Shown here in pieces: positions 1-15,979 of a stretch of 64,000 bases of DNA. Under the pieces are notes generated by a model. That model saw nothing but the letters and a program-made list of their open reading frames with translations, did no database searches and had not been told where the DNA came from. Location of the stretch: contig CANDNT010000006.1 of NCBI GenBank assembly GCA_947387485.1, positions 124,001 through 188,000 on the forward strand, read 5' to 3'. Source of the DNA: Aquimarina rhabdastrellae (GTDB taxonomy: Bacteria; Bacteroidota; Bacteroidia; Flavobacteriales; Flavobacteriaceae). Positions within the stretch are counted from its first letter, which is position 1. Every line of letters starts with the position of its first letter. The position numbers were made by a program, and so were the translations under genes.

Positions 1-2
1 AG

Positions 3-10
3 TAGCTTTG
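3..10 (+). promoter_or_regulatory. Bacteroidota -7 box for the OsmC-like gene
   Basis: TAGCTTTG matches the flavobacterial -7 consensus TAnnTTTG. It lies 30 bases before the ATG at 41. The -33 region falls outside the window, so this rests on one box and its position. Confidence 0.5.
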
Positions 11-40
11 TGGTTTATAACAAACCTTAATAAGAAAAAG

Positions 41-469
41 ATGAAAGTAGCATTAAATAGATTAAACGACGATTACCATTTTGAATTAAAAAATGAAAGA
101 GGACATATCGTTCATCTGGATAACAAAGCAGAAAATGGAGGACATGATCTAGGAGCAAGTCCGATGGAATTATTACTGATGGGAGTTGCTGGATGTAGTG
201 CCATAGATGTGATTATGATTTTGAAAAAACAAAAACAAGAAATCACATCATATAAGACAGAAGTTGATGGAGAAAGAGAGAAAATAGGAGGCGCATCACC
301 TTTTAAAAAGATTAATGTAACTATTTATTTAGAAGGAAATATATCACCAGAAAAAGCACAAAGAGCAGCAGAATTATCGTTTGAAAAATATTGCTCAGTA
401 TCAAAAACATTAGAACCTACTGCACAGGTTGCATATAAAGTTATACTCAACGGAGAGCCATGCGTATAG
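41..469 (+). CDS. OsmC family protein
   Basis: A 142-residue OsmC/Ohr-family protein. The family includes cytoplasmic thiol peroxidases that reduce organic hydroperoxides with a pair of cysteines, and relatives of unknown role. The family pattern GASPMELLLMGVAGCSAIDV lies near residues 40-60 with the first cysteine, and a second cysteine sits in FEKYCSVS, where OsmC proteins carry theirs. An earlier in-frame start at 8 lies inside the likely promoter box, so the ATG at 41 is preferred. It is followed 60 bases later by a sulfur amino acid enzyme, which may point to thiol metabolism. The fold is clear but the substrate is not. Confidence 0.85.
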   Translation: MKVALNRLNDDYHFELKNERGHIVHLDNKAENGGHDLGASPMELLLMGVAGCSAIDVIMILKKQKQEITSYKTEVDGEREKIGGASPFKKINVTIYLEGNISPEKAQRAAELSFEKYCSVSKTLEPTAQVAYKVILNGEPCV

Positions 470-529
470 CATAAGAAAACTCAAATACCAATGCTCATAA
501 CAGAGAAGAGGTATAAAATCAAAAAAATA

Positions 530-1708
530 ATGAATAAAGAACAAAAACATTTTGAAACTCAAGCGATCCGTATTCAAGCAGATCGTACTTCGTATCAAGA
601 ACACTCGGTACCTTTATACTTAACCTCTGGTTTTGTTTTTGAAGGAGCCGAAGAAATGCGTGCTTCTTTTGCCGAAGAAAAAGAAAGAAATCTTTACAGT
701 AGATTTAGCAATCCCAATACAACAGAGTTTGTTGATAAAATGTGTGCTCTAGAAGGAGCCGAAGCTGGCTATGCTTTTGCTACTGGAATGGCAGCAGTGT
801 TTTCAACTTTTGCAGCATTGCTTAATAGCGGAGATCATATTGTTTCGTCAAGATCAGTTTTTGGTTCAACACATTCATTATTTACAAAATATTTTCCTAA
901 ATGGAATATAGAGACTAGTTATTTTCAGGTAAATGACATAGAGAAAGTTGAAGATTTAATTCAGCCCAACACTAAGATTTTATATGCAGAATCTCCTACA
1001 AATCCAGGAGTAGATGTTTTGGATCTTGAAGCTTTAGGAATTATAGCAAAAAAACATAATTTACTTTTGGTTATAGATAATTGTTTTGCAACACCATATT
1101 TACAAAATCCGATTGCTTATGGAGCAGATTTAGTAATCCACTCAGCAACCAAATTGATAGATGGTCAAGGAAGAGTTTTAGGAGGTGTAACTGTAGGGAA
1201 AGCAGATCTTATTAGAGAAATTTATTTGTTTTCACGTAATACAGGTCCAGCTTTATCGCCATTTAACGCGTGGGTATTGTCCAAAAGTTTAGAAACACTA
1301 GCAATTAGAGTAGACAAGCATTGTGATAATGCAACAAAACTGGCAACATATTTAGAAAGCCATCCTAAAGTAAACTGGGTCAAGTATCCATTTTTAAAAT
1401 CACATCCACAATACGAAGTGGCTAAAAAGCAAATGCGTTTAGGAGGAAATATTGTTGCATTTGAAGTTAAAGGAGGAGTTGATGCAGGAAGATCATTTTT
1501 TGATAATATAAAAATGAGTTCACTATCAGCTAATCTAGGAGATACACGCACAATAGTTACACATCCAGCATCTACAACACATAGTAAACTTGCTCAAGAA
1601 GATAAATTAGCAGTAGGAATAACAGACGGAATGGTTAGGTGTTCTGTGGGATTAGAACATATAGATGATATTATAAAAGATATAGAACAAGCCTTAAGTT
1701 TGTTGTAA
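530..1708 (+). CDS. metZ: O-succinyl/O-acetylhomoserine sulfhydrylase (Cys/Met metabolism PLP enzyme)
   Basis: A 392-residue Cys/Met-metabolism PLP-dependent enzyme of the cystathionine gamma-synthase superfamily, cytoplasmic. It probably joins sulfide to an activated homoserine to give homocysteine. Visible are the PLP-contacting stretch YSRFSNPNT, the ATGMAA segment, the IDNCFATP segment with its PLP-ring aspartate, and the Schiff-base lysine in HSATKLIDGQGR. The start at 530 gives a normal N-terminus; the reading frame stays open upstream to an ATG at 491, which would add 13 unlike residues. The nearby cys operon and riboswitch-controlled metH support direct sulfhydrylation. Cystathionine gamma-synthase or a lyase is the alternative, since the subfamily cannot be settled by eye. 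Confidence 0.85.
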   Translation: MNKEQKHFETQAIRIQADRTSYQEHSVPLYLTSGFVFEGAEEMRASFAEEKERNLYSRFSNPNTTEFVDKMCALEGAEAGYAFATGMAAVFSTFAALLNSGDHIVSSRSVFGSTHSLFTKYFPKWNIETSYFQVNDIEKVEDLIQPNTKILYAESPTNPGVDVLDLEALGIIAKKHNLLLVIDNCFATPYLQNPIAYGADLVIHSATKLIDGQGRVLGGVTVGKADLIREIYLFSRNTGPALSPFNAWVLSKSLETLAIRVDKHCDNATKLATYLESHPKVNWVKYPFLKSHPQYEVAKKQMRLGGNIVAFEVKGGVDAGRSFFDNIKMSSLSANLGDTRTIVTHPASTTHSKLAQEDKLAVGITDGMVRCSVGLEHIDDIIKDIEQALSLL

Positions 1709-1710
1709 TA

Positions 1711-1740
1711 AAAAAGGTTGCCAAGCGGCAACCTTTTTTA
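1711..1740. terminator. Bidirectional intrinsic terminator between metZ and a lipoprotein gene
   Basis: The arms GGTTGCC and GGCAACC enclose an AAGC loop and are flanked by A and T runs. The hairpin starts 3 bases after the metZ stop and lies 36 bases beyond the stop of the reverse-strand lipoprotein gene, so it can serve both convergent genes. Confidence 0.85.
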
Positions 1741-1775
1741 ATCTTTATTTTTCTAGAAATTTGATTGATAAAGAT

Positions 1776-2327
1776 TTACTTAGTCAAAGTGATTTTGATT
1801 ACACCTGATGTAGTAACACTAAGACCTGCAAGCTCAAAAAGATCAAAATAACCAAAAGCATCAAGAGAATCTAAATCAGTTTCAAGATTCATTGTACTTT
1901 CAGTTAAGTTAGTGATTCTAAAAGTAGTTGAATCACCATCTTCAGTAATAGTCAATGTACTTCCTTCAATAAACCAACTGTCAGCATCAAAAAATCCTTC
2001 GATAGTCTCATCAGAAGGAGCACTTACCCCTGCAATTTCAAAAGCAGTTGAAAGCGTAAAACTTCCGTCAGAAGCGATCGTTTTAGGATCCTCAGAAAAA
2101 GTTACAGTCATGTCATAATCACTTCCTGTTGCTGTAATCGAAGTAGAAGAAGTTGGTAATCCTGGGAACGTGTATTCCAAAGCTCCACCTTCTGAATTAA
2201 ACGATGTTAAATTCCATTCTCCGATGGCTAATGTAGGATCAATAACTACAGAAGAGTCATCATCACTGCTACAAGAAGTTAAAAAAGTTGTGCATGCTAA
2301 AAATAAAACTAGACCTAGTTTTTTCAT
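1776..2327 (-). CDS. Lipocalin-like secreted lipoprotein of unknown function
   Basis: A 183-residue exported lipoprotein. The N-terminus has a lysine-rich start, a hydrophobic core and the lipobox LTSC at about residues 16-19. After the cysteine come Ser-Ser-Asp-Asp-Asp, which resembles the acidic surface-export signal known for Bacteroidota lipoproteins. The mature part starts with IGEWNLTSF and contains several polar beta-strand-like segments, as in the lipocalin-like proteins common in flavobacteria. No catalytic residues are recognisable. It is transcribed towards metZ and shares a terminator with it. Export and lipidation are well supported; the fold is an inference. Confidence 0.7.
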   Translation of the reverse strand: MKKLGLVLFLACTTFLTSCSSDDDSSVVIDPTLAIGEWNLTSFNSEGGALEYTFPGLPTSSTSITATGSDYDMTVTFSEDPKTIASDGSFTLSTAFEIAGVSAPSDETIEGFFDADSWFIEGSTLTITEDGDSTTFRITNLTESTMNLETDLDSLDAFGYFDLFELAGLSVTTSGVIKITLTK

Positions 2328-2358
2328 GATATATAAGTTTGATTGATAATATTTTGTG

Positions 2359-2366
2359 CAAAATTA
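2359..2366 (-). promoter_or_regulatory. -7 box for the reverse-strand lipoprotein gene
   Basis: Read on the reverse strand this is TAATTTTG, matching TAnnTTTG, 32 bases before the start codon at 2327. No good -33 box was found. Confidence 0.45.
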
Positions 2367-2521
2367 TGATTCTTTTTTCAATAGACATAATTGTTTCTTC
2401 TTTTTTAATAGATAATTACTAGGATTTATTTTTAATCAGTTGATTATCAGTGATGATTGTTTTTCGTCAATTTTTAAAAGTTAAAAAATGTAAAATTAAG
2501 GTTAAATAACTAATAGCCTAC

Positions 2522-2552
2522 TTGGTTAATAGGATATTAAAGTTTACATTTG
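2522..2552 (+). promoter_or_regulatory. Promoter of the sulfate assimilation operon
   Basis: TTG at 2522-2524, a 20-base spacer and TACATTTG at 2545-2552 fit the flavobacterial sigma-A promoter (TTG, about 19-20 bases, TAnnTTTG). Transcription would start near 2558, leaving a leader of about 65 bases before the DUF2061 gene. The interval from 2328 to 2622 holds no other gene; it carries this promoter, the reverse-strand -7 box and a possible operator at 2567-2582. Confidence 0.7.
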
Positions 2553-2566
2553 TTCAATAATCTAGT

Positions 2567-2582
2567 ATTCCGATAGGGTAAT
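2567..2582. promoter_or_regulatory. Possible operator dyad in the cys operon leader
   Basis: ATTCCGATAGGGTAAT is an imperfect dyad (ATTnC at the left, GnAAT at the right) lying about 10-25 bases after the predicted transcription start. That placement suits a repressor site. No regulator gene is visible nearby, so this is tentative. Confidence 0.3.
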
Positions 2583-2622
2583 GAGAAAATATTGCTTTTA
2601 ACGAGAGAAATAGAAGAAAAAA

Positions 2623-2895
2623 ATGATTGTACAACAGATGTTTATAGGAAATCTAGCAAAGACAAATAAAACTGATTACAAAAAGGATAAGACCTCAGAA
2701 AATCCTTTACGAAGTATAGTAAAGTCTATAAGTTGGAGAATAGTGGGGACGCTAGATACCATATTGATTGCATGGTTAGTGACAGGAGAAGTAAAAGCAG
2801 CAATATCCATAGGATCTGTAGAATTAGTAACAAAAATGGTGCTGTATTTTTTTCACGAACGTATTTGGAATACAATAAAATGGGGTAAACAATGA
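2623..2895 (+). CDS. DUF2061 small membrane protein
   Basis: A 90-residue DUF2061 protein, probably in the inner membrane. The family core runs from about residue 30: RSIVKSISWRIVGTLDT, a hydrophobic segment (ILIAWLVTG), and a second one ending in TKMVLYFFHERIWNTIKWG, which is typical of the family. The function of DUF2061 is unknown. It is the first gene of the sulfate assimilation operon, and its stop overlaps the cysH start by 4 bases (ATGA), so translation is probably coupled. The position suggests a role with sulfate or sulfite handling, but nothing in the sequence proves transport. The extra polar 25 residues at the N-terminus are longer than usual for the family. Confidence 0.8.
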   Translation: MIVQQMFIGNLAKTNKTDYKKDKTSENPLRSIVKSISWRIVGTLDTILIAWLVTGEVKAAISIGSVELVTKMVLYFFHERIWNTIKWGKQ

Positions 2896-3518
2896 GACAA
2901 TATACAGAAGCTGAAATAGCAGCATTAAATAAAGAATTAAAAGAGAAAACGCCTATTGAAATTGTGAAATGGGCGCTAAATAGCGCTAGTAACCCGGTAG
3001 TAACCACAAACTTCAGACCTTATGAAGCAGCGATTCTACATGCCTGTATCGAGGGAGCGAAAGAGATACCAGTACTTTGGTGTGATTCGGGATACAATAC
3101 CCCGAATACATATAGGCATGCAGAAGAGGTGATACAATTGTTAGGTCTGAATGTTAAACTTTATGTACCACAACAAACAGTGGCACATAGAGATGTGGTT
3201 ATGGGGCTACCGGATATTGATGATCCTAAGCATAAGGAATTCACAAGGCAAGTAAAACTTGAACCTTTTACAAGAGCGATGAAAGAACATCAACCAGATG
3301 TATGGTTTACTAATCTAAGAAAAGGACAAACAGCATTGCGAAACTCTCTTGATATATTGAGTTTGAGTAAAGATGGAGTATTAAAAGTAAGTCCGTTTTA
3401 CTATTACAGTGATGAAGATTTAGATGTGTATTTAGAAAAAAATAACCTGCCAAACGAATTTAAATATTTTGATCCTACCAAAGTGTTGGGGAATCGAGAG
3501 TGTGGATTACACGTATAA
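2892..3518 (+). CDS. cysH: Phosphoadenylyl- or adenylyl-sulfate reductase (CysH)
   Basis: A 208-residue cytoplasmic CysH that reduces activated sulfate to sulfite with thioredoxin or glutaredoxin. The nucleotide-binding start TTNFRPYEA (about residues 38-46), the CDSGYNTPNTYRH segment, VEP-like KLEPFTRAMKE, LRKGQ and the C-terminal catalytic ECGLH (Cys204) are all present. Only three cysteines exist (52, 64, 204). The CC and CxxC ligands of the 4Fe-4S APS reductases are missing, so by family rules it should be a PAPS reductase. PAPS formation needs an APS kinase, yet no cysC follows and CysN lacks a kinase domain. The true substrate is therefore open. It is slightly shorter than E. coli CysH. 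Confidence 0.9.
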   Translation: MRQYTEAEIAALNKELKEKTPIEIVKWALNSASNPVVTTNFRPYEAAILHACIEGAKEIPVLWCDSGYNTPNTYRHAEEVIQLLGLNVKLYVPQQTVAHRDVVMGLPDIDDPKHKEFTRQVKLEPFTRAMKEHQPDVWFTNLRKGQTALRNSLDILSLSKDGVLKVSPFYYYSDEDLDVYLEKNNLPNEFKYFDPTKVLGNRECGLHV

Positions 3519-3582
3519 TAAACAAACAAAAAAGCAACAAAAAACAAAATTCATCTAGAACCAAGATGTTGATAAATAAATT

Positions 3583-4482
3583 ATGAGTACACTATTGAGA
3601 AGTAACCCGTTAGAGAGTGAAGCGATATACATTATCAGAGAAGTGGCTGCACAGTTTGAGAGACCAGTGTTACTCTTTTCTGGAGGAAAAGATTCCATAA
3701 CCTTGGTGAGGTTGGCTCAAAAAGCCTTCTATCCAGCAAAAATACCTTTTCCGTTATTGCATATAGATACAGGACATAACTTTCCAGAAACAATAGAGTT
3801 TAGAGATAAACTAGTAGAAGAATTGGGGGTAGAGTTAATTGTACGTAATGTACAAGATGCTATTGATGCAGGAAAAGTAATTGAAGAAAAGGGACGATAT
3901 TCAAGTAGAAACTCACTTCAAACAACAACATTATTAGATGCACTTGAAGAATTTAAGTTTGATGCGGCTATAGGAGGTGCACGTAGAGATGAAGAAAAAG
4001 CAAGAGCCAAAGAACGTATTTTTTCTGTAAGAGATGATTTTGGACAATGGGATGAAAAAAACCAACGTCCAGAGCTTTTTGATCACCTTAACGGGAAAAT
4101 TGAATTAGGTCAAAACGTAAGAGTATTTCCGATTTCAAATTGGACAGAATTAGATGTATGGAGTTATATACAGAATGAACAAATCGAAATACCATCAATA
4201 TATTTTTCACATAAAAGAAAGACGTTTATTCGTGATGGAATGATATGGTCTGTTTCAGATTTTGTGTACAAAGAAGATGACGAAGAAGTAGAAGAAAGAG
4301 TAGTACGATTTAGAACTGTAGGAGACATGACCTGTACAGCTGCAGTTACATCTGAAGCACGAACAGTAGCTGAGGTTGTAAAAGAAATCAAAGCTTCTAC
4401 GATTTCTGAAAGAGGTGCACGAATAGATGACAAGCGTTCTGAAGCAGCGATGGAGAAAAGAAAACAACAAGGATATTTCTAA
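3583..4482 (+). CDS. cysD: Sulfate adenylyltransferase subunit 2 (ATP sulfurylase)
   Basis: A 299-residue catalytic subunit of ATP sulfurylase, which makes APS from sulfate and ATP together with the GTPase CysN. The PP-loop motif FSGGKDSI (residues 32-39) binds ATP. The downstream LLHIDTGHNFPETIEFRD, GGARRDEEKARAKER and the C-terminal EKRKQQGYF stretch are typical for CysD. The length is standard. It follows cysH by 64 bases and precedes cysN, with two small hairpins in the 127-base gap. The partner order and reading direction fit one operon. Confidence 0.96.
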   Translation: MSTLLRSNPLESEAIYIIREVAAQFERPVLLFSGGKDSITLVRLAQKAFYPAKIPFPLLHIDTGHNFPETIEFRDKLVEELGVELIVRNVQDAIDAGKVIEEKGRYSSRNSLQTTTLLDALEEFKFDAAIGGARRDEEKARAKERIFSVRDDFGQWDEKNQRPELFDHLNGKIELGQNVRVFPISNWTELDVWSYIQNEQIEIPSIYFSHKRKTFIRDGMIWSVSDFVYKEDDEEVEERVVRFRTVGDMTCTAAVTSEARTVAEVVKEIKASTISERGARIDDKRSEAAMEKRKQQGYF

Positions 4483-4522
4483 ATCAAATTCGGATATAAA
4501 CAATATAAAAAATACTTATTAA

Positions 4523-4579
4523 TAACTAGGGGTAGTTAGTTATAAGGATCCACAGTTTGCCTTTTTAGGCAAGCTGTGG
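4523..4579 (+). other. Two RNA hairpins between cysD and cysN
   Basis: The first hairpin is TAACTA, a GGGG loop, TAGTTA (4523-4538). The second is stronger: CCACAGTTTGCC, a TTTTTA loop, GGCAAGCTGTGG (4550-4579), 12 pairs with one G-U. No T run follows, so this is not a normal terminator. It ends 30 bases before the cysN start. It may shape mRNA processing, stability or the cysD:cysN ratio, which is an inference. Confidence 0.55.
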
Positions 4580-4609
4580 TAATTAAAAGCTACCAAATGA
4601 AGCAATATC

Positions 4610-5857
4610 ATGGAAGTATTAAAAATAGCAACAGCAGGGAGTGTAGATGACGGAAAAAGTACATTGATTGGACGTATATTATACGACACACAATCATTGA
4701 CTACAGATAAATTGGAAGCTATAGAAAAAAGTAGCAAACAAAAAGGATTTGATTATTTAGACTTCTCTCTCGCTACAGATGGACTAGTAGCAGAAAGAGA
4801 ACAAGGAATCACGATAGATGTAGCTCATATTTACTTTTCTACACAAAAGAAGAGTTATATCATTGCAGATACTCCTGGTCATATAGAGTATACACGAAAC
4901 ATGGTTACAGGAGCTTCTACCTCACAAGCATCAATTATATTAGTTGATGCACGTAATGGTGTTGTAGAACAAACAAATCGCCACTTTTTTATCAATAACC
5001 TATTAAGAGTTAAAGATGTAATTGTCGCGGTAAATAAGATGGATTTGGTTGATTTTTCTAAAGAAAAATTTGAAAGTATAAAGGCCGATTTCCAAGCATT
5101 AATAGAAAAGAGTAGCTATAAAGAACAAAATATAACATTTATTCCAGTAAGCGCTTTAAGTGGTGATAATGTAGTAGAGAAATCAGAGAAAACGCCATGG
5201 TATTCAGGTAAAACACTGTTGGAACATCTGGAAGAATTAAAAGGGCAAGATCTTTATGAAGAGGCTCAAGCAAGATTTCCAGTACAAACAGTAGTGAGAC
5301 CAAAACAAGCCGAGTTTCATGATTTTAGAGGGTATGCAGGAAAGCTTTACGGAGGAGATTTAGCAGTAGGAGACGAGATTACAGTATTACCATCGCTAAC
5401 AACTTCAAAAATAAAAGAAATATACTTCTTTGATCAAAAATTTGATAAAGCAGGAAGAGGTAGTTCTTGTACAATCACACTCGAAGATAATATTAATATT
5501 AGTCGAGGAGATATGATTGTAAAATCAGAAGAAAAGCCACGATTAGAAAAACAACTAACAGCAAAAGTATGCTGGATGGATAATAGAAATCTTGTGCCAG
5601 GAACAAACTATTTTGTACAAAATGGAAGCAATAGAATTTTGGCAAAAGTGAAGCAAATCCACGGTACGATAGCAACAGATTTTTCTGGAGAAGATACTTC
5701 AAAAAATACGTTAACACTTAACGAAATAGGAAAAGTACAAATACAGTTAAGTAAACCGTTAGCTTTTGATGCATATGAAAATAATAAAGCATTAGGATCA
5801 TTTATATTGATTGATGCTCAGACAAATAATACTTCAGGAGTAGGCTTTATAGAATAA
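4610..5857 (+). CDS. cysN: Sulfate adenylyltransferase subunit 1 (GTPase, CysN)
   Basis: A 415-residue EF-Tu-like GTPase that drives APS synthesis by CysD. GTP-binding motifs are clear: GSVDDGKS (residues 10-17), the switch region EREQGITIDVAH, DTPGH (87-91) and NKMD (142-145), followed by two beta-barrel domains. It ends at GVGFIE, where stand-alone CysN proteins end, so there is no fused CysC (APS kinase) domain as in CysNC proteins. It lies between cysD and the sulfite reductase gene. The missing kinase matters for understanding CysH. Confidence 0.95.
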   Translation: MEVLKIATAGSVDDGKSTLIGRILYDTQSLTTDKLEAIEKSSKQKGFDYLDFSLATDGLVAEREQGITIDVAHIYFSTQKKSYIIADTPGHIEYTRNMVTGASTSQASIILVDARNGVVEQTNRHFFINNLLRVKDVIVAVNKMDLVDFSKEKFESIKADFQALIEKSSYKEQNITFIPVSALSGDNVVEKSEKTPWYSGKTLLEHLEELKGQDLYEEAQARFPVQTVVRPKQAEFHDFRGYAGKLYGGDLAVGDEITVLPSLTTSKIKEIYFFDQKFDKAGRGSSCTITLEDNINISRGDMIVKSEEKPRLEKQLTAKVCWMDNRNLVPGTNYFVQNGSNRILAKVKQIHGTIATDFSGEDTSKNTLTLNEIGKVQIQLSKPLAFDAYENNKALGSFILIDAQTNNTSGVGFIE

Positions 5858-5952
5858 AATAATCAACAAAAAATAGAGGTCAAAATTAGTATACAAAAGT
5901 CATAGGTATGCCCTGTTGTGACTTCCTAATATTACCATATAAACACAACGAG

Positions 5953-8055
5953 ATGCAAAGTTTTAGAACAGAAATTGAAAATCCGATTGTCGAGAAAGAT
6001 ATCATAGAATTAGCAAAAAAAATTGAGCTATTCAAAGAAGGAAAAATGGATGAAGAAAAATTCCGAAGCCTAAGATTGGCACGCGGAGTTTATGGACAAA
6101 GACAACATGGAGTACAAATGATACGCATCAAGTTGCCTTATGGAAAAGTATCCGCTACTCAATTGAATAGAATAGCAGATGTTTCAGATGAATATTCTAC
6201 AGGTAGATTACATATAACAACAAGACAAGATATACAGATTCACTATGTAAGTCTAGATCGTACCCCAGAATTATGGGCAGAACTAGAAAAAAATGATGTG
6301 ACACTTAGAGAAGCTTGCGGAAATACAGTGCGTAATGTTACAGCTTCTGCCATGGCGGGAGTTGATTCAGAAGAACCTTTTGATGTAAGTCCGTATGCAC
6401 ATGCAGTATTCCAATTCTTTTTACGTAACCCTGTATGTCAAGAAATGGGAAGAAAGTTTAAAATATCATTTTCTTCTTCAGATAAAGATACAGCCCTGTC
6501 TTATATACATGATTTAGGTTTTATACCTAAATTACAAGATGGAGTGAGAGGATTTAAAATTATGTTAGGAGGAGGATTAGGATCTCAACCTAGAAAAGCA
6601 GATGTGTTTTATGATTTTGTTGCTACAGAAAGAATCGTTCCTATAATAGAAGGAGTGTTGAGAGTATTTGATCGTTATGGAGAAAGGTCAAAACGTTTAA
6701 AAGCACGAATGAAGTTTTTGATTAAAGATATAGGGTTAGATGCTTTTAGAGAATTAGTAAACCAAGAACAAAAAGCACTTTCGTATCAAAATTATCCTCT
6801 TGACGAAGAAGCGTTACAATATGAGCAAAAGCGAATTTTATCAGATGTTGTAGCTCCAGAAGTAACAATAGAAGATCAAACCGAATTTAATAATTGGAAA
6901 CGATCAAATGTGATTTCGCAAAAGCAAGAAGGATATGTAGCTATAGGAGTACGAGTTTCTTTAGGAGATTTTTATACCGATAAAGCTAGAGCTTTGGCTA
7001 ACCTTATCAATGCTTATGCAGGAGATGAATTACGTTTTACTTTAAGACAAGATATTTTAATTCCGAATATAAAAGAAGAAAATATACCATTTTTCTATCA
7101 TGAATTAAAAGCTTTAGGATTTACTCAAGCAGGATACAATACCACTATAGATATTACAGCATGTCCAGGAACAGATACCTGTAACTTGGGGATAGCAAGT
7201 AGTACAGGGATTTCAACAGAGTTAGAGCGAGTAATCGCTGCAGAATATCCAGAATACATTCATAATAAAGAAGTGACTATAAAAATAAGTGGATGTATGA
7301 ATGCTTGTGGGCAACACAATATGGCTCATATAGGATTTCAAGGAATGTCTATACGTACCCCAGATAAGTTAGTAGCTCCAGCACTTCAAGTATTGTTAGG
7401 AGGAGGGGTTTTAGGTAATGGAGATGGTCGTTTTGCAGATAAAGTAATCAAGATACCAAGTAAAAGAGGGCCAGAAGCATTGAGAAGAATCTTGAATGAT
7501 TATGAGACGCATAATGAGGAATCTGATTTCTTAGCATACTATGATAAACAAGGAGAAAAATATTTCTATAATTTACTTAAAGATTTAGCAAATGTAGAAA
7601 ACCTTACCCAAGAAGATTTTATCGATTGGGGAAATAAAGAAGAATACATAAAAGCAGTTGGAGTAGGAGAATGCGCAGGAGTTGTAATTGATTTGATTGC
7701 AACACTGTTTTTAGAAAGTGAAGAGAAATTAGCAAAAGCAAAAGAAACTTTTGAGGAAGAAAGTTATGCACATGCAATATATCATGCATATAGTGCTTTT
7801 GTAAATTCGGCTAAAGCTTTACTCCTAGCAGAAAATAAAAAGACGAATACACAAGCAAGCATTATAGAACAATTTGATAGTGAGTTTGTGACATCAGAAA
7901 AAGTAAATCTAGAAGGAAAAACTTTTGGAGAGTTGATTTATCAATTGCAAAAGAATGAACCTTCAAAAGATTTTGCAGCACAATATATAGCAGATTCTAG
8001 TCAGTTTTTACAAAAAGTACAGGCGTACAGAAAGTTGGAGGTGTTAGATGTATAA
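5953..8055 (+). CDS. Assimilatory sulfite (or nitrite) reductase with C-terminal HEPN-like domain
   Basis: A 700-residue siroheme and 4Fe-4S reductase, most likely reducing sulfite to sulfide with ferredoxin electrons. Two ferredoxin-like half domains and siroheme domains span about residues 1-560; the first has RLHITTRQDIQIHY and TASAMAGVD. Cluster cysteines follow the family rule C-x5-C (404, 410) and C-x3-C (448, 452). The last 120-odd residues are an all-helical extension with AIYHAYSAFVNSAKALLL, resembling a HEPN domain, though the RNase-type R-x4-H motif is absent. An upstream in-frame ATG at 5908 would add 15 residues; 5953 starts like relatives (MQSFRTEIENP). Context with cysHDN and siroheme genes favours sulfite over nitrite. 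The stop overlaps cobA by 8 bases. Confidence 0.88.
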   Translation: MQSFRTEIENPIVEKDIIELAKKIELFKEGKMDEEKFRSLRLARGVYGQRQHGVQMIRIKLPYGKVSATQLNRIADVSDEYSTGRLHITTRQDIQIHYVSLDRTPELWAELEKNDVTLREACGNTVRNVTASAMAGVDSEEPFDVSPYAHAVFQFFLRNPVCQEMGRKFKISFSSSDKDTALSYIHDLGFIPKLQDGVRGFKIMLGGGLGSQPRKADVFYDFVATERIVPIIEGVLRVFDRYGERSKRLKARMKFLIKDIGLDAFRELVNQEQKALSYQNYPLDEEALQYEQKRILSDVVAPEVTIEDQTEFNNWKRSNVISQKQEGYVAIGVRVSLGDFYTDKARALANLINAYAGDELRFTLRQDILIPNIKEENIPFFYHELKALGFTQAGYNTTIDITACPGTDTCNLGIASSTGISTELERVIAAEYPEYIHNKEVTIKISGCMNACGQHNMAHIGFQGMSIRTPDKLVAPALQVLLGGGVLGNGDGRFADKVIKIPSKRGPEALRRILNDYETHNEESDFLAYYDKQGEKYFYNLLKDLANVENLTQEDFIDWGNKEEYIKAVGVGECAGVVIDLIATLFLESEEKLAKAKETFEEESYAHAIYHAYSAFVNSAKALLLAENKKTNTQASIIEQFDSEFVTSEKVNLEGKTFGELIYQLQKNEPSKDFAAQYIADSSQFLQKVQAYRKLEVLDV

Positions 8056-8806
8056 TAGAGGACGATTTACAGTAGTAGGTGCAGGGCCAGGAGATCCAGA
8101 ATTAATAACACTCAAAGCTATGAATGCGTTAAAAGATGCAGATGTAGTATTGTATGATGCTTTGGTAAACAAAGAATTATTAGCATATGCAGCAGGAGCA
8201 GAACAAATTTATGTAGGGAAACGTAAAGGATGTTATGCTTATCAGCAAGAACAAATAAATGACTTAATTGTTAGTAGAGCACAAACTCACGGACATGTAG
8301 TGCGATTAAAAGGAGGAGATCCATTTATTTTTGGAAGAGGAGCAGAAGAAATAGATCATGCACAACGCTTTGGGATTTCTACAGCAATAGTTCCAGGAAT
8401 TTCCTCCTCAATTGCAGTACCAGCATATCAAGGAATTCCGTTGACAAAAAGAGGTGTTTCAGAGAGTTTTTGGGTAATAACAGGAACAACAAAAAGTCAT
8501 AAACTTTCTAATGATATTAGAGTAGCGGCAAAATCAACAGCAACTGTTGTTATTTTGATGGGAATGAGTAAGCTCAATGAAATAGTTAGTATCTTTACAG
8601 CAGAGAATAAAGAAGATATTCCCGTAGGTATTATCCAAAATGGAACAACGCGTGAAGAGAAATGTGGATTTGGGACTATTAAAACGATCTCATCGATTGT
8701 GGCAAAAAAAGAATTGTCTTCGCCAGCAATTATTGTGATAGGAGAAGTAGTGAAAAATAGATCTCGAGTAGTTTCTTTATGCAGAGAGATTAGTGAAGAA
8801 GTATGA
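8048..8806 (+). CDS. cobA: Uroporphyrinogen-III C-methyltransferase
   Basis: A 252-residue SAM-dependent enzyme that methylates uroporphyrinogen III twice to precorrin-2, the first step to siroheme for the sulfite reductase just upstream. Family signatures are VGAGPGDPELITLKA near the N-terminus, VRLKGGDPFIFGRGAEE near residue 90 and VPGISSSIAVPAYQGIPLTKRG. The length is that of a stand-alone CobA/SumT, without the CysG dehydrogenase half. It overlaps the reductase gene by 8 bases and the next siroheme gene is directly downstream, which shows a co-translated set. Confidence 0.96.
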   Translation: MYNRGRFTVVGAGPGDPELITLKAMNALKDADVVLYDALVNKELLAYAAGAEQIYVGKRKGCYAYQQEQINDLIVSRAQTHGHVVRLKGGDPFIFGRGAEEIDHAQRFGISTAIVPGISSSIAVPAYQGIPLTKRGVSESFWVITGTTKSHKLSNDIRVAAKSTATVVILMGMSKLNEIVSIFTAENKEDIPVGIIQNGTTREEKCGFGTIKTISSIVAKKELSSPAIIVIGEVVKNRSRVVSLCREISEEV

Positions 8807-8831
8807 TATAAATGAAGTAATGAGAATAAAA

Positions 8832-9416
8832 ATGGAAGAAAGAAATGATTTATATCCTATTTTCTTAAAAGTTCATAAACTTAATTTGCTCATTGTAGGT
8901 GGGGGAAACGTAGGATTAGAAAAGCTGATTTTTTTATTAAAATCAAGTCCTAATGCCAATATAGAAATGGTAGCAACCTATTTTTTGCCAGAGACAAGAA
9001 AACTAGCAGAAAAACATGGAGTAACGCTAATCCAAAAGAAATACCATAAAAGACAATTAAGAAAGAAGCATTTGGTAATAGCAGCAACAGATAGTTTTGA
9101 CGTTAATCAAAAAATCTATGAAGATGCTAGAAAACGCTTTTTATTGGCTAATATTGCAGATACACCAGAGTTATGCGATTACTATATGGGAGGAATTGTA
9201 ACCAAAGGAAATGTGAAAATAGCTATTTCTACTAATGGTAAATCTCCAACAATGGCAAAACGTTTACGTCAATTTTTTGAAGAGGTAATACCTGGAGATA
9301 TCAATAAATTGGTGCAAAATTTAAACGAATTCAGAAAAACAATAAAAGGTGATTTTGAAGAAAAGGTAGAAACCTTAAATGAAGTTACCAAAGGATTAAT
9401 AGCTAAAAATAGTTGA
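8832..9416 (+). CDS. Precorrin-2 dehydrogenase / sirohydrochlorin ferrochelatase
   Basis: A Met8/CysG-N-type protein that oxidises precorrin-2 with NAD and inserts iron to finish siroheme. The NAD-binding turn VGGGNVGLEK is near residue 20, and the conserved aspartate segment NIADTPELCDYY follows near 105. The C-terminal helices contain SPTMAKRLRQ, also typical. With cobA it splits the job of E. coli CysG over two genes. The start is uncertain: GTG at 8793 (overlapping cobA) and ATG at 8820 are in frame, but 8832 gives MEERNDLYPIF, which best fits relatives. The 194-residue length is normal. Confidence 0.9.
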   Translation: MEERNDLYPIFLKVHKLNLLIVGGGNVGLEKLIFLLKSSPNANIEMVATYFLPETRKLAEKHGVTLIQKKYHKRQLRKKHLVIAATDSFDVNQKIYEDARKRFLLANIADTPELCDYYMGGIVTKGNVKIAISTNGKSPTMAKRLRQFFEEVIPGDINKLVQNLNEFRKTIKGDFEEKVETLNEVTKGLIAKNS

Positions 9417-9419
9417 GAC

Positions 9420-10475
9420 ATGATAAAGACCGATATACTTATTATTGGCGCAGGACCAACAGGATTGTTTACCGTTTTTGAAGCGGGATTGTTAAAACTT
9501 AAATGTCACTTAATAGATGCATTGCCTCAACCAGGAGGACAATGTGCAGAAATATATCCAAAGAAACCTATCTATGATATTCCAGGATTTCCAGAAGTTT
9601 TAGCTGGAGATTTGGTAGATAACCTAATGGAACAAATCAAATCTTTTGAGCCTGGATTTACTTTAGGAGAAAGAGCAGATACAATAGAAAAGCAGGAAGA
9701 TGGAACTTTTATAGTAACTACAAATAAAGGAACAAAACACCATGCTCCAGTAGTAGCGATTGCAGGAGGTTTAGGATCTTTTGAACCACGTAAACCACCT
9801 ATTCCTAATATCGCAGATTATGAAGATAATGGAGTAGCTTATATTATACGTGATCCAGAAGTGTACAGAGATCAAAGAGTGGTAATTGCTGGAGGAGGAG
9901 ATTCTGCTTTAGATTGGACAATATTCCTAGCAGATGTTGCAAGCGAAGTAACTTTGGTTCACCGTAGAAATGAGTTTAGAGGAGCGTTAGATTCTGTAGA
10001 AAAAGTAGCCGAACTTAAGAAATTAGGAAAGGTTAACCTTATTACAGAAGCTGAGGTAAAAGGACTACATGGAGAAGGAAAAATTACTGGAGTAACCATT
10101 AAACATAAAACAGAAGGAGAAATCCTTAAAGAAACAGATCATTTTATTCCGTTATTTGGTTTATCACCAAAATTAGGACCTATTGCAAATTGGGGACTAG
10201 AAATAGAAAAAAATGCTATAAAAGTAGATAATACCTTAGATTATCAAACTAATATTCCTGGGATATATGCTATAGGAGATGTAAATACATATCCAGGAAA
10301 ATTAAAGTTGATTTTATGTGGATTCCACGAAGCAACTTTAATGTGTCAAAGTGCCTATAAACGTATTTTTCCAGATAAGAAATATGTGATGAAATATACA
10401 ACTGTTAGTGGTATAGATGGATTTGATGGTAGTAGAAAAGAAGCACAAAAAGCAGTAGTAAAATCTATTGTTTAA
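9420..10475 (+). CDS. Ferredoxin--NADP reductase (thioredoxin reductase-like flavoprotein)
   Basis: A 351-residue FAD and NAD(P)H oxidoreductase. The FAD-binding GAGPTGLF is at residues 10-17, the NAD(P)H site GGGDSALDW at about 158, and GIYAIGDV with a flavin-binding aspartate near 285. The redox CxxC of thioredoxin reductase is absent after GGGDSALDW, so the protein belongs with the YumC/FNR2 type. It starts 3 bases after the siroheme gene, and a [2Fe-2S] ferredoxin gene follows. The simplest reading is that it reduces this ferredoxin, which passes electrons to the sulfite reductase. This partnership is inferred from gene order. Confidence 0.88.
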   Translation: MIKTDILIIGAGPTGLFTVFEAGLLKLKCHLIDALPQPGGQCAEIYPKKPIYDIPGFPEVLAGDLVDNLMEQIKSFEPGFTLGERADTIEKQEDGTFIVTTNKGTKHHAPVVAIAGGLGSFEPRKPPIPNIADYEDNGVAYIIRDPEVYRDQRVVIAGGGDSALDWTIFLADVASEVTLVHRRNEFRGALDSVEKVAELKKLGKVNLITEAEVKGLHGEGKITGVTIKHKTEGEILKETDHFIPLFGLSPKLGPIANWGLEIEKNAIKVDNTLDYQTNIPGIYAIGDVNTYPGKLKLILCGFHEATLMCQSAYKRIFPDKKYVMKYTTVSGIDGFDGSRKEAQKAVVKSIV

Positions 10476-10510
10476 TACATCTTATTAAAAGTTAATTAAA
10501 GCAAAACCTT

Positions 10511-10547
10511 CCTCACAAATGATACAAAATCTAGTATATTTGTGAGG
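10511..10547. promoter_or_regulatory. Perfect inverted repeat overlapping the ferredoxin -7 box
   Basis: CCTCACAAAT (10511-10520) and ATTTGTGAGG (10538-10547) are perfect 10-base arms 17 bases apart. The right arm overlaps TATATTTG (10535-10542), a match to TAnnTTTG 20 bases before the ferredoxin ATG. It may be an operator, or a weak terminator after the reductase gene, since AATTTTAATAA follows. No -33 TTG was seen. Confidence 0.5.
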
Positions 10548-10562
10548 AATTTTAATAAAGGT

Positions 10563-10883
10563 ATGTCGGATATTACAATAAAAATAAAAGATAGAGAAGG
10601 TGAGGTTCACGAGATTCAAGCGCCTACAGATATGGCAATGAACCTTATGGAGGTATGTAAAGCATATGAGTTGCCTGTAGAAGGAACATGTGGAGGTATG
10701 GCTATGTGTGCTTCATGTCAATGTTATATCTTATCAGATCACCAATTACCAGAAATGGGAGTAGATGAAGATATGATGTTAGCCGAAGCTTTTTATGTAG
10801 AAGACAATAGTAGATTAGGGTGTCAAATACCAATTACACCAGAATTAGATGGATTGGAGATTGAGTTAGCTCCAGAGTCATAA
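10563..10883 (+). CDS. [2Fe-2S] ferredoxin, adrenodoxin type
   Basis: A 106-residue soluble electron carrier. Cluster ligands follow C-x5-C-x2-C-x34-C (Cys43, 49, 52 and 87) in GTCGGMAMCASCQC and LGCQIP, as in adrenodoxin-like ferredoxins of bacteria. The frame is open from GTG 10542, but that codon lies inside the promoter box, so the ATG at 10563 is used. The gene closes the sulfate operon region after its likely reductase, though its own -7 box suggests separate expression too. Supplying sulfite reductase is likely; iron-sulfur assembly is the other common job of this family. Confidence 0.92.
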   Translation: MSDITIKIKDREGEVHEIQAPTDMAMNLMEVCKAYELPVEGTCGGMAMCASCQCYILSDHQLPEMGVDEDMMLAEAFYVEDNSRLGCQIPITPELDGLEIELAPES

Positions 10884-10953
10884 ATAACTTAACTCAAAAT
10901 AATTATTAAATATTTGCAAAACAAAAACAGAACTGTTTTATTTGTAATGCAAT

Positions 10954-11000
10954 ACAGTTATCTTATAATAAGATAATAGCTGTTCTTATACATTTTTTTT
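10954..11000 (+). terminator. Terminator-like hairpin after the ferredoxin gene
   Basis: The palindrome TATCTTATAATAAGATA (10959-10975), extended by outer ACAG and CTGT, is followed by a T-rich tail ending in eight Ts at 10993-11000. It fits an intrinsic terminator. The T-rich end also contains TACATTTT at 10989-10996, a near -7 box placed to start transcription at the riboswitch. Confidence 0.5.
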
Positions 11001-11002
11001 GT

Positions 11003-11143
11003 TATCAAGAAAGGCAGAGGGATTAGAACCGATGAAGCCTTAGCAACCCTTTAATCTATTAAAGAAGGTGCTACATTCTACCATAGACATGGATAGATAA
11101 CACAAACGATAATCTTCACGATTACCTAATAAATTTCTTGATA
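11003..11143 (+). ncRNA. SAM-I (S-box) riboswitch
   Basis: Closing helix P1 pairs TATCAAGAAA (11003-11012) exactly with TTTCTTGATA (11134-11143). Inside it are the S-box core elements: AGAGGGA, then GATGAAGCCTTAGCAACC at 11030-11047, the short hairpin around TTTAATCTATTAAAG and the GGTGCTACATTCTACC segment. SAM-I riboswitches sense S-adenosylmethionine and shut methionine genes when SAM is plentiful. The element lies 88 bases before metH, so it likely controls both metH halves and metF. No clear downstream terminator is visible, so the switch may act on translation. Confidence 0.93.
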
Positions 11144-11231
11144 CTTCTAAAAAGCAGATTCTTAACATCTTGATGATGTAAGGATAAGATCAGTTGTGTA
11201 GTTTTTCAATTTAAAAAAGAAAAAACGATAG

Positions 11232-12236
11232 ATGAAGGATATCAAAGAAGTTTTGAAAGAACGAATCCTAGTATTAGATGGTGCTATGGGAACCATGTTA
11301 CAACGACATAAGTTTACCGAAGAGGACTTTAGAGGCGAACGCTTTAAAAACTGGTCAGTACCATTACAAGGAAACAATGATTTATTGAGTCTCACTCAAC
11401 CAGAAGCAATAAGAGAAGTACATAAATTATATTTTGAAGCAGGAGCAGATATAGTAGAAACAAATACCTTTTCTGGTACAACAATAGCGATGGCAGACTA
11501 TGAAATGGAGGAGTTGGTGTACGAACTTAATTATGAATCGGCTAAGATAGCCAAAGAAGTCGCTGATGAGTTTACCAAAAAAGATCCATCAAAACCGAGA
11601 TTTGTTGCTGGTTCTATAGGGCCTACTAATAAGACAGCAAGTATGTCTCCCGATGTTAATAACCCTGGATTTCGTGCGATTACGTTTGACGAACTTAAGA
11701 TAGCTTATAGAGAACAAGTTGAGGCATTGATAGATGGAGGAGCAGATATTCTTTTGGTCGAAACAGTATTTGATACCCTAAATGCTAAAGCAGCATTATT
11801 TGCTATTGAAGAAGTAAAGGATGAAAGAAATATTACTATACCTATCATGGTGAGTGGTACGATAACAGATGCAAGTGGGAGGACACTTTCTGGACAAACA
11901 GCCGAAGCTTTTTTGATTTCTGTGGCACATATACCTATGTTAACTGTAGGTTTTAATTGCGCATTAGGAGCAAGTCAGTTAATCCCACATTTAGAAATTC
12001 TATCACAAAAAGCTTCAATCGGAGTTTCAGCACACCCTAATGCGGGTTTACCTAATGCTTTTGGAGAGTATGACGAAACTCCAGAACAAATGGCTGAACA
12101 AATAAAAGAATATTTAGATAAAAAAATAGTCAATATTATAGGAGGATGTTGTGGTACTACACCAGAACATATAAAAGCAATAGCCCAGTTGGCATCGCAG
12201 TATGTTCCTAGAACAGTAGAAATAGCAGAAGAATAA
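11232..12236 (+). CDS. metH: Methionine synthase, homocysteine-binding half (split MetH)
   Basis: A 334-residue homocysteine S-methyltransferase domain, the N-terminal part of cobalamin-dependent methionine synthase. It starts with [15 protein letters not shown] and carries the zinc-binding cysteines Cys243 (in GFNCALGAS) and Cys306-Cys307 (in [11 protein letters not shown]), which activate homocysteine. In E. coli this domain is fused to the rest of MetH. Here it ends where the domain boundary lies, and the second gene starts on its stop codon (overlap of one base), so the two parts should be made together. A split MetH is usual in Bacteroidota. A SAM-I riboswitch precedes it. Confidence 0.95.
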
Positions 12237-14938
12237 TGGAAGCAACATCAAGAAGAGTATTAAAACTATCTGGATTAGAACCTTTGGTAGTAACCGATGA
12301 TCTTAATTTTATTAATGTAGGTGAACGAACTAATGTAGCTGGATCACGCAAATTCTTAAGATTAATAAAAGAAGAGAATTTTGAAGAAGCCTTATCCATA
12401 GCTAGACATCAAGTAGAAGGAGGAGCTCAAATTATCGATATTAATATGGATGATGGTTTGATTGATGGAAAAGAAGCTATGGTAAAGTTCTTAAATCTAA
12501 TTGTGTCAGAACCAGATATAGCAAGAGTGCCTATAATGATCGATAGTTCTAAATGGGAGATTATCGAAGCTGGTTTACAGATAGTGCAAGGTAAATGTGT
12601 TGTAAATTCTATAAGCTTAAAAGAAGGAGAAGAAATGTTTATAAATCAAGCTAAATTAATTAAGCGATATGGAGCAGCCGTTATTGTAATGGCTTTTGAT
12701 GAGGTAGGACAAGCAGATACATATGATAGACGTATAGAAATAGCAAAACGCTCATATGAAATTTTGGTAGATAAAGTAAAGTTTGCACCAGAAGACATCA
12801 TTTTTGATTTAAATATTTTTCCTGTGGCAACAGGAATGGATGAACATAAACTTAATGCAATAGACTTTATAGAAGCCACGAGATGGGTACGCACCAATTT
12901 ACCATATTGTAGTGTAAGTGGAGGAGTAAGTAATATTTCGTTTTCGTTTAGAGGGAATAATACGGTTAGAGAAGCAATGCATTCTGTGTTTTTATATCAT
13001 GCTATAGAAGCGGGAATGAATATGGGGATAGTCAACCCTACTATGTTAGAAGTCTATGATGATATCCCTAAGGATCTTCTAGAGTATGTAGAAGATGTTG
13101 TTCTTAATCGTAGAGATGATGCTACAGAACGATTACTAGATTTTGCAGAAACGGTAAAAGGTGTTAAAAAAGAAAAAGCAGTTGATCTCTCATGGAGAAA
13201 AGAACCTTTACAAGATCGTATTACAAGAGCATTAGTTAAGGGGATAGATCAATTTATAGAAGAAGATATAGAAGAAGCTAGAGTTAGTGTTAAAAAACCT
13301 ATCGAAGTTATAGAAGGACACTTAATGAGAGGGATGAATGTAGTAGGAGATTTGTTTGGATCAGGAAAGATGTTCTTACCTCAAGTAGTAAAATCAGCAC
13401 GAGTAATGAAAAAAGCGGTAGCCTATTTATTACCGTTTATAGAAGAAGATAAAAAAAATGAAGTAGGAGAACAAGCGATAAGATCTGCAGGAAAAGTTTT
13501 AATGGCTACAGTAAAAGGAGATGTGCATGATATCGGAAAAAATATAGTCTCAGTAGTTTTAGGATGTAATAACTATGAGATTATAGATTTAGGAGTAATG
13601 GTACCTCCAGAAAAAATTATTGAAACAGCGATCGAAAAAGAAGTTGATGTAATTGGGTTGAGTGGATTGATTACACCGTCTTTAGACGAAATGGTATATC
13701 TAGCCAAAGAGATGGAGCGAAAAGACTTTGATATTCCATTGTTGATAGGTGGAGCAACAACATCAAAAGCACATACTGCAGTAAAAATAGATCCACAATA
13801 TAAAAATGCAGTAGTTCATGTAAATGATGCTTCTAGGGCAGTAACTGTTGTAGGAGATTTATTGAATAAGAGAACGAAACAAAACTATATTGGAAACCTA
13901 AAATCAGATTACGAAAAGTTTAGAGAAAGTTTTTTAAGCAGAACAAAGAAAAAAGAATACTTGACTATAGCCGAATCTAGAAAGAATAAATATCAATTAG
14001 ATTGGGATAATACTATAATAACAACACCTAAAGAATTAGGGAAGAAAGTGATAAAACAGCAATCTATAGAAGAGCTTATTGACTATATAGACTGGACTCC
14101 ATTCTTTAGGTCATGGGATTTACATGGTAAATTTCCAGATATCTTAAAAGATGAAGTGGTGGGCGAAGAAGCATGTATTTTATATAAAGATGCATTAGAA
14201 TTGCTTCAAAAGATTAAAGATGAGAAATGGTTTGAAGCAAAAGCTGTATTTGGGATTTATCCTGCAAATACAATAAATACAGATGATATAGCAGTATATA
14301 AAGATGAAACACGAACAGATGTTGAGGTTACCTTTAGGACATTGCGACAACAATTGAAGAAATATAAAGGAAAACCCAATATAGCTTTGGCTGATTTTAT
14401 AGCACCAGAAACTTCGTCGAAAGCAGATTATATAGGGGCTTTTTGTGTGACTACAGGTTTTGGGGTACAAGAAAAAGCACTCGCTTTTGAGGCAGAAAAT
14501 GATGATTATAATGCTATTATGGTCAAAGCATTGGCAGATCGTTTGGCTGAAGCTTTTGCAGAGTATTTACATCAAAAAATAAGAAAAGAAGAATGGGGAT
14601 ATGCAAAAGAAGAAAAATTGACAAATGAAGAATTGATAAAAGAATCCTATAAAGGAATTCGACCAGCGCCAGGATATCCTGCTTGCCCAGATCATTTAGA
14701 GAAAAAAACTATTTGGAAATTACTTAATGTAGAAGAAGAAATAGGCGTGACGTTAACAGATAGTTTAGCTATGTGGCCAGCAGCATCTGTATCGGGATAT
14801 TATTTTGGAAATCCAGAGGCTAAATATTTTGGATTAGGAAAAATAAAAGAAGATCAAGTAGAAGATTTCGCAATACGTAAAGGCATAACGTTAGATAGTG
14901 CCCAAAAATGGTTAAATCCTAATATAATAGAAGGGTAA
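12236..14938 (+). CDS. metH: Methionine synthase, folate, cobalamin and reactivation half (split MetH)
   Basis: A 900-residue protein with the remaining MetH modules. The pterin-binding domain ([14 protein letters not shown] near residue 23) takes the methyl group from methyltetrahydrofolate. The cap and B12 domain follows, with DVHDIGKN at 429-436, where His431 should be the lower cobalt ligand, and [15 protein letters not shown]. The C-terminal activation domain has [12 protein letters not shown] from residue 809, which binds SAM for reductive reactivation. It needs the zinc domain encoded just upstream. Length and domain order match MetH without its first domain. Confidence 0.96.
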
Positions 14939-14944
14939 TATAGC

Positions 14945-15898: not shown

Positions 15899-15979
15899 GT
15901 TATTTAAGAAATATTCTTTTGAATACTGATCTTATTTTATGTATACTTGAATGGTTTCTTTGATAAAAGAACAATAATT

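Follow-up and report, generated by a model that had tools for sequence, protein, structure and literature searches.

What does a sulfonucleotide reductase act on when it carries none of the cysteines that bind an iron-sulfur cluster, and when no enzyme that would make the phosphorylated substrate can be found in its genome? The question is raised by cysH of Aquimarina rhabdastrellae, which lies with the ATP sulfurylase genes cysD and cysN in a stretch of 64,000 nucleotides (contig CANDNT010000006.1, positions 124,001 to 188,000 of the forward strand; hereafter the window). The rule of textbooks and annotation is that CysH proteins with a cluster reduce adenosine 5'-phosphosulfate (APS) and that those without one reduce 3'-phosphoadenosine 5'-phosphosulfate (PAPS). 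We propose that the window CysH departs from this rule and is very probably an APS reductase of the thioredoxin type that has no iron-sulfur cluster, a reading of sequence data to which residues, operon structure and gene co-occurrence all lend support. It is the second of two alternatives offered by the first-pass annotation of the window; the first was an APS kinase encoded elsewhere in the genome.

The CysH protein

The window CysH is 208 residues long (open reading frame (ORF) 2892-3518). Its only cysteines are at positions 52, 64 and 204, as the first-pass annotation had it, and the further claim that the CC and CxxC ligands are missing is also borne out, there being no such pair in the protein. 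The [4Fe-4S] ligands by which a cluster-bearing APS reductase is recognized are therefore lacking. They are absent from all 140 relatives in the family sample described below, and so the cysteine pattern of the window CysH is not a matter of chance. The motif ECGxH, by contrast, is present in 139 of the 140; the exception, L084, reflects the end of the alignment only, as the full gene has ECGLH. The catalytic role of this motif is stated in a passage of PMC2275785.

Membership of the sulfonucleotide reductases, taken as PF01507 plus ECG(L/I)H, is supported by a Pfam PAPS_reduct score of 70.9 bits (cut-off 22.5), and the protein lies below the cut-off of all six matching NCBIfam models (best, 109 of 154 bits). 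Its nearest named relatives are from Aquimarina. The AlphaFold model has a mean predicted local distance difference test (pLDDT) score of 91.7 and is weak at residues 198-201. As judged from this model, the best fold matches are the Vibrio and E. coli PAPS reductases, followed by the PAPS reductases of Candida and yeast, the mycobacterial and Pseudomonas APS reductases and APR-B of moss. The Fig. 4 legend of PMC2275785 gives Y/FxxxxK and GDxxxT/S as signatures of enzymes without a cluster; F117xxxxK122 is present in the window CysH, and the segment expected to hold GDxxxT is missing.

PAPS genes in the source genome

The source genome comprises 4,995,868 bases in 59 contigs and is 99.39% complete. 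The whole-genome search for cysC that the first-pass annotation had suggested gave no match to the APS kinase family (PF01583, E ≤ 1e-3), all 49 first-look candidates having been scored; the control for this search was positive in 11 of 14 control genomes. A kinase elsewhere in the source genome was rejected on this result. Nor does the operon hold a cysC gene or a CysN-CysC fusion, both as originally stated: CysN stops at residue 415 and has no kinase domain, on which ground the fusion too was rejected.

The canonical PAPS route of E. coli and Vibrio uses both CysC and CysQ. A CysQ-like phosphatase for 3'-phosphoadenosine 5'-phosphate (PAP) was not found in the source genome (TIGR01331, E ≤ 1e-3, the only PAP-degrading family searched), and Sulfotransfer_1 (PF00685, E ≤ 1e-3) and Sulfotransfer_3 (PF13469, E ≤ 1e-8), the only sulfotransferase families searched, were likewise not found. 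Thus, by these searches, the maker, the recycler and the usual users of PAPS are all missing, and with them the kinase supply and the product clearance that would be expected around a PAPS reductase.

P-loop residues and their proposed role in substrate choice

The proposed specificity switch lies in the P-loop, TTNFRPYE. When 80 named close relatives were compared column by column with 33 relatives of lower identity, residues 40, 42 and 45 differed between the two sets, and residue 206 did so mildly (Leu/Ile). All 80 named rows, which were picked by similarity and not by motif, have both R42 and E45. In tool alignments, the column of E45 is Ala in the PAPS reductases of E. coli and Vibrio and Gly in the yeast and Candida enzymes. 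Chaining of the alignments through E. coli places it opposite Asp in APS reductase 2goy of Pseudomonas, in that of Mycobacterium (7lhr) and in a plasmid-borne CysH of Sinorhizobium. We take the Asp of the Pseudomonas enzyme to contact the ribose. The combination of Gly42 with a small residue at 45, found in the PAPS reductases 2o8v, 6vpu, 2oq2 and 7rge, is replaced in the window CysH by Arg and Glu. A short P-loop query gave no match in the PDB.

Two types of compact CysH in the Flavobacteriaceae

The family sample consisted of 199 Flavobacteriaceae genomes, with a CysH match in 156, PF01583 in 96 and TIGR01331 (the CysQ family) in 100 (both E ≤ 1e-5). For the census, 88 of the 96 were counted as CysC-positive, eight with matches of 26-64 bits being set negative (G010, G058, G068, G138, G145, G158, G180 and G196), and 92 of the 100 as CysQ-positive (at least 225 bits), eight with 40-122 bits being set negative (G014, G041, G116, G138, G153, G177, G185 and G195); at most 18 first-look candidates were scored per genome in the CysC search. 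The census comprises 140 loci at 43% identity or more among the matches listed, from 139 genomes (G123 has two, and one row was counted of the two CysH of L017); weaker second copies may exist.

By their P-loops, the 140 loci fall into two types. One has R42 and E45 (TNFRPYE; 106 loci), and the other has Gly42 with Ser or Ala at 45 (FGxxS/A; 34 loci). The first-pass annotation held a cluster-free APS reductase to be known in very few organisms, a view that needs revision if the R42/E45 protein is such an enzyme, as this is the commoner of the compact types. CysC occurs in 32 and CysQ in 33 of the 106 R42/E45 genomes, 70 have neither, and 74 lack a strong CysC match; cysD is directly downstream of cysH in 91 and a DUF2061 gene directly upstream in 95. 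In the FGxxS/A type, CysC and CysQ are each present in 33 of 34, cysD is downstream in none and DUF2061 is upstream in three. Fisher's test gives p = 6.9e-13 for the difference in CysC and 4e-21 for that in cysD, values that assume an independence which the genomes do not have.

A split of the relatives by identity (upper, at least 59%; lower, 43-55%) was tried and replaced by the split on residues, three loci having been misfiled. L116, at 50% identity, has NFRPYE, the gene order DUF2061-cysH-cysD-cysN and neither CysC nor CysQ; L154 and L257, at about 60%, have FGPYA/FGPFS and both CysC and CysQ. The latter two are the only exceptions among the 107 census loci at 59% identity or above, R42 and E45 being found together in the other 105.

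An operon slot shared with APS kinase

In PAPS-making loci, the order cysQ-DUF2061-cysC-cysD-cysN is found at L121, L122 (with a gap before cysD) and L123, and also at CysC loci elsewhere (e.g. L129, L132, L136, L137 and L141). The order in the window, as in most R42/E45 genomes, is DUF2061-cysH-cysD-cysN, and comparison of the two places cysH where the kinase gene would otherwise be. For cysH of the FGxxS/A type, the next gene is that of sulfite reductase in 20 of 34 loci and cysD in none.

DUF2061 adjoins sulfate activation genes in operons of both kinds, and is possibly tied to sulfate uptake or to the sulfurylase. Aquimarina longa (L017) has two tandem DUF2061-cysH-cysD-cysN sets, with gene starts at 1855-4012 and 7712-9759.

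Genomes with both CysH and APS kinase

The R42/E45 genomes that retain CysC call for an explanation of their own. Among 20 CysC loci, 19 of them from R42/E45 genomes, CysQ is nearby in 17 and CysD in 11, and cysH was found beside CysC in none. Sulfotransfer_3 (E ≤ 1e-8) is present in none of the 74 R42/E45 genomes without CysC, in 19 of the 32 with it and in 27 of the 34 of the FGxxS/A type, a distribution that indicates that CysC tracks sulfation. Three genomes (G584, G608 and G611) have two CysD each, one 83-87% identical to that of the window and the other 60-62% identical and directly beside CysC. On the simplest reading of genomes with both, APS feeds the branch that leads to reduction, and PAPS feeds another that leads to sulfation. 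The gene after cysH is not cysD in 10 of the 32, and for this reason CysH may use PAPS there.

A search for CysC and CysD in 38 genomes, drawn from the 80 named loci and covering four of the six Marinifilum loci, found CysD in all 38 and no PF01583 match in 29, including all four Marinifilum genomes.

Proposed pathway and alternatives

The pathway that we envisage would begin with the conversion of sulfate and ATP to APS by CysD-CysN. CysH would then bind APS directly, with C204 attacking the sulfur and adenosine monophosphate leaving, after which a thiol donor, presumably thioredoxin, would release sulfite for reduction to sulfide by the sulfite reductase encoded next in the operon. As neither PAPS nor PAP would be made, neither CysC nor CysQ would be needed. 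E45, in place of Ser, Ala or Gly, would contact the ribose side and repel a 3'-phosphate, and R42 would reshape the loop; together, these effects would make APS the substrate.

Several observations weigh against this assignment. The closest solved structures to the window CysH, both by sequence and by fold, are the PAPS reductases 6vpu and 2o8v. Strong CysC matches do occur in the 32 R42/E45 genomes noted above, including the 10 in which cysD is not next to cysH, and PF01583 is present in nine of the 38 named genomes, which carry the same type of CysH. If weak matches (E ≤ 1e-5) are counted as present, the number of R42/E45 genomes with neither CysC nor CysQ drops from 70 to 59 of 106. The R42/E45 type is, moreover, one clade, and the co-occurrence counts are therefore not independent events, while G075 (FGIYS) is the sole FGxxS/A exception in having no CysC, albeit in a draft of about 220 contigs that is 94% complete. 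Position 45 also varies among cluster-bearing enzymes: those of L117-L120 from the same family, which have CC and CxxC, read SSFAATS, with Ser at 45, unlike the Pseudomonas and Mycobacterium proteins; the plasmid-borne one of Planctomyces has Thr at 45 and Asp one residue earlier, in an ungapped reading by eye. Finally, CysD was not found in a Halomonas record with a related CysH (see below), which is part of a genome only.

Part of this could be accommodated if the window CysH were an ordinary PAPS reductase, with PAPS made by an unrecognized, non-homologous APS kinase and cysC only apparently missing. The identity of its nearest solved relatives, the absence of a cluster, which is the usual mark of PAPS use, and the CysC of the 32 genomes would all fit, but such a kinase would leave unexplained why CysQ and Sulfotransfer_1/3 were unfound in the source genome as well, and why the P-loop differs at residues 40, 42 and 45 from that of PAPS-type relatives, 33 of 34 of which keep an ordinary CysC; we give this account little credence. 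A reductase of dual specificity, accepting APS and PAPS alike and using APS in genomes without CysC, would suit the mixed state of the 32 genomes, and of the 10 among them with cysD elsewhere, and it has a parallel in CysH of Bacillus subtilis, described as bifunctional in a figure legend of PMC6286981. Every named row nevertheless retains R42 and E45, as do 105 of the 107 census loci that reach 59% identity, the other two having CysC and CysQ. Such conservation points to selection for APS and not to tolerance, and we regard dual specificity as unlikely. That the operon has no part in sulfate assimilation, with CysH a relic or acting on another compound, is scarcely credible: a passage of a 2016 paper on Lacinutrix (PMC4755562), which reports a PAPS reductase without an APS kinase and holds that assimilation may be impossible, would fit, but the frames are open, ECGxH is conserved, linkage to ATP sulfurylase and sulfite reductase extends over many genera, and CysD is present in all of the named genomes searched.

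If the window CysH is indeed an APS reductase, the cysteine rule fails for a large bacterial group, and pathway tools would score its members as unable to assimilate sulfate, a conclusion to which the Lacinutrix passage came near. Near relatives with and without R42/E45, and possible intermediates with NFGPYS and NFGPFS, would then constitute a natural experiment on the roles of the cluster and of the P-loop.

Comparison with known reductases

PMC2275785 describes moss APR-B as a cluster-free APS reductase and states that lack of a cluster is no proof of PAPS use; the paper names no Bacteroidetes (0 occurrences). Archaeal variants are covered in parts of PMC10322725 and PMC6286981. Among titles and the beginnings of abstracts, most subscription papers lying outside this range, we found no claim of a bacterial cluster-free APS reductase. 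We predict that the window CysH is a bacterial variant of a kind hitherto recorded in moss and algae; judged by sequence, it would be common in its family.

APR-B of Physcomitrella patens (4bwv), which reduces APS according to PMC2275785, resembles the window CysH in having no Cys pairs and in its fold (Foldseek TMq 0.72). It differs in its chain of 283 residues and in its identity over the fold alignment, about 22% as against about 31% for the Vibrio PAPS reductase, and it scores below the PAPS reductases by both sequence and fold. As the sequence gives no hint of any particular kinship with APR-B, the origin of the window type was probably independent. The E. coli and Vibrio PAPS reductases (2o8v and 6vpu) share the lack of a cluster, ECGLH and the fold, but have the P-loop SSFGIQA and chains of 252 and 261 residues. 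The Pseudomonas and Mycobacterium APS reductases share the acidic residue at the position of E45 and, as proposed here, the substrate; they have CC and CxxC, a longer C-terminal region and only some 20-24% identity to the window CysH. Closest of all are the PAPS-type compact CysH of the same family (e.g. L098 and L102), at 43-61% identity, with a similar length, the same missing C-terminal segment and a frequent sulfite reductase neighbor, yet with FGxxS/A in place of FRPYE and with the different gene company described above.

Ancestry and distribution

In a tree of 145 rows, with three cluster-bearing CysH as outgroup, the R42/E45 type forms one group (support 89/91, in 91% of bootstrap trees) nested among PAPS types. 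Immediately below this group come two PAPS-type loci, L084 and L257, whose loops, NFGPYS and NFGPFS respectively, are intermediate. A single origin of the R42/E45 type, from a compact PAPS reductase without a cluster, is probable, although the bootstrap is unsettled and the root a midpoint, so that the direction and order of change are tentative. We consider it likely that this lineage independently turned a compact, cluster-free PAPS reductase into an APS reductase by changes in the P-loop (G42R and S45E), that the gene moved to the slot of the kinase next to ATP sulfurylase and that CysC and CysQ were then lost in most genera, giving an assimilatory route free of both PAPS and cluster that is common in marine Flavobacteriaceae and extends to Marinifilum, with a related gene in the Halomonas record.

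A survey of 392 genomes of the phylum found CysH at 65% identity or above in 14, including the source, all of the same family; at most nine first-look candidates were scored per genome and not all P-loops were read, so that it covers close relatives only. A 200-base piece from upstream, compared with plasmids by megablast, gave no match, and a scan of viral_contigs found no CysH relative; that of a phages collection gave one match, a Salmonella record of 691 kb. Marinifilum (Marinifilaceae) has an R42/E45 gene without the flavobacterial neighbors searched for. The record of Halomonas sp. PA16-9 (L264, 8001-8605) holds a compact CysH, 51% identical and with a TTNFRPFE loop, whose frame is broken in the record; an ORF beside it resembles, by eye, a LysR-type regulator.

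Features of the operon

The features of the operon are collected in the table below. The start of cysH overlaps the end of the DUF2061 gene by ATGA (2892-2895). For the reductase encoded downstream of cysN, the operon context suggests sulfite rather than nitrite as the substrate, and the ferredoxin is its probable electron donor.

Features of the cysH operon in the window (all on the forward strand)
Feature	Position	Strand	Basis or remark
DUF2061 small membrane protein gene	2623-2895	+	PF09834, 85.5 bits
cysH, compact cluster-free sulfonucleotide reductase, proposed APS reductase	2892-3518	+	PF01507
P-loop T38-E45 (TTNFRPYE), proposed specificity switch	3003-3026	+	R42, 3015-3017; E45, 3024-3026
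Catalytic ECGLH, E203-H207, nucleophile C204	3498-3512	+	E203, C204, G205 and H207 invariant in alignment
cysD, ATP sulfurylase catalytic subunit (makes APS)	3583-4482	+	TIGR02039, 423 bits (cut-off 396.6)
cysN, ATP sulfurylase GTPase subunit, without CysC fusion	4610-5857	+	TIGR02034, 509 bits (cut-off 336)
Sulfite reductase hemoprotein with C-terminal HEPN domain	5908-8055	+	PF01077, PF03460, PF05168
SUMT/CobA-type methylase (siroheme for sulfite reductase)	8048-8806	+	PF00590
Siroheme synthase N-terminal type (precorrin-2 dehydrogenase)	8793-9416	+	PF13241, PF14824
Ferredoxin-NADP reductase-like/thioredoxin reductase-fold oxidoreductase	9420-10475	+	PF07992; TIGR01292, 149.7 bits, below cut-off 343
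2Fe-2S ferredoxin	10542-10883	+	PF00111

The HEPN match in the sulfite reductase lies at residues 601-664, as a C-terminal fusion. No RNA element was found at cysH in an Rfam search of positions 1-16000. A hairpin at 4550-4579, between cysD and cysN and inside the presumed operon (-22.7 kcal/mol, z -4.4), may serve in processing or attenuation. At 10999-11103 there is an S-adenosylmethionine (SAM; S box) riboswitch (75.1 bits), downstream of which methionine synthase is encoded as two ORFs, one for the methyltransferase (11232-12236) and one for the pterin, B12 and activation domains (12236-14938), followed at 14945 by the gene for methylenetetrahydrofolate reductase (MTHFR).

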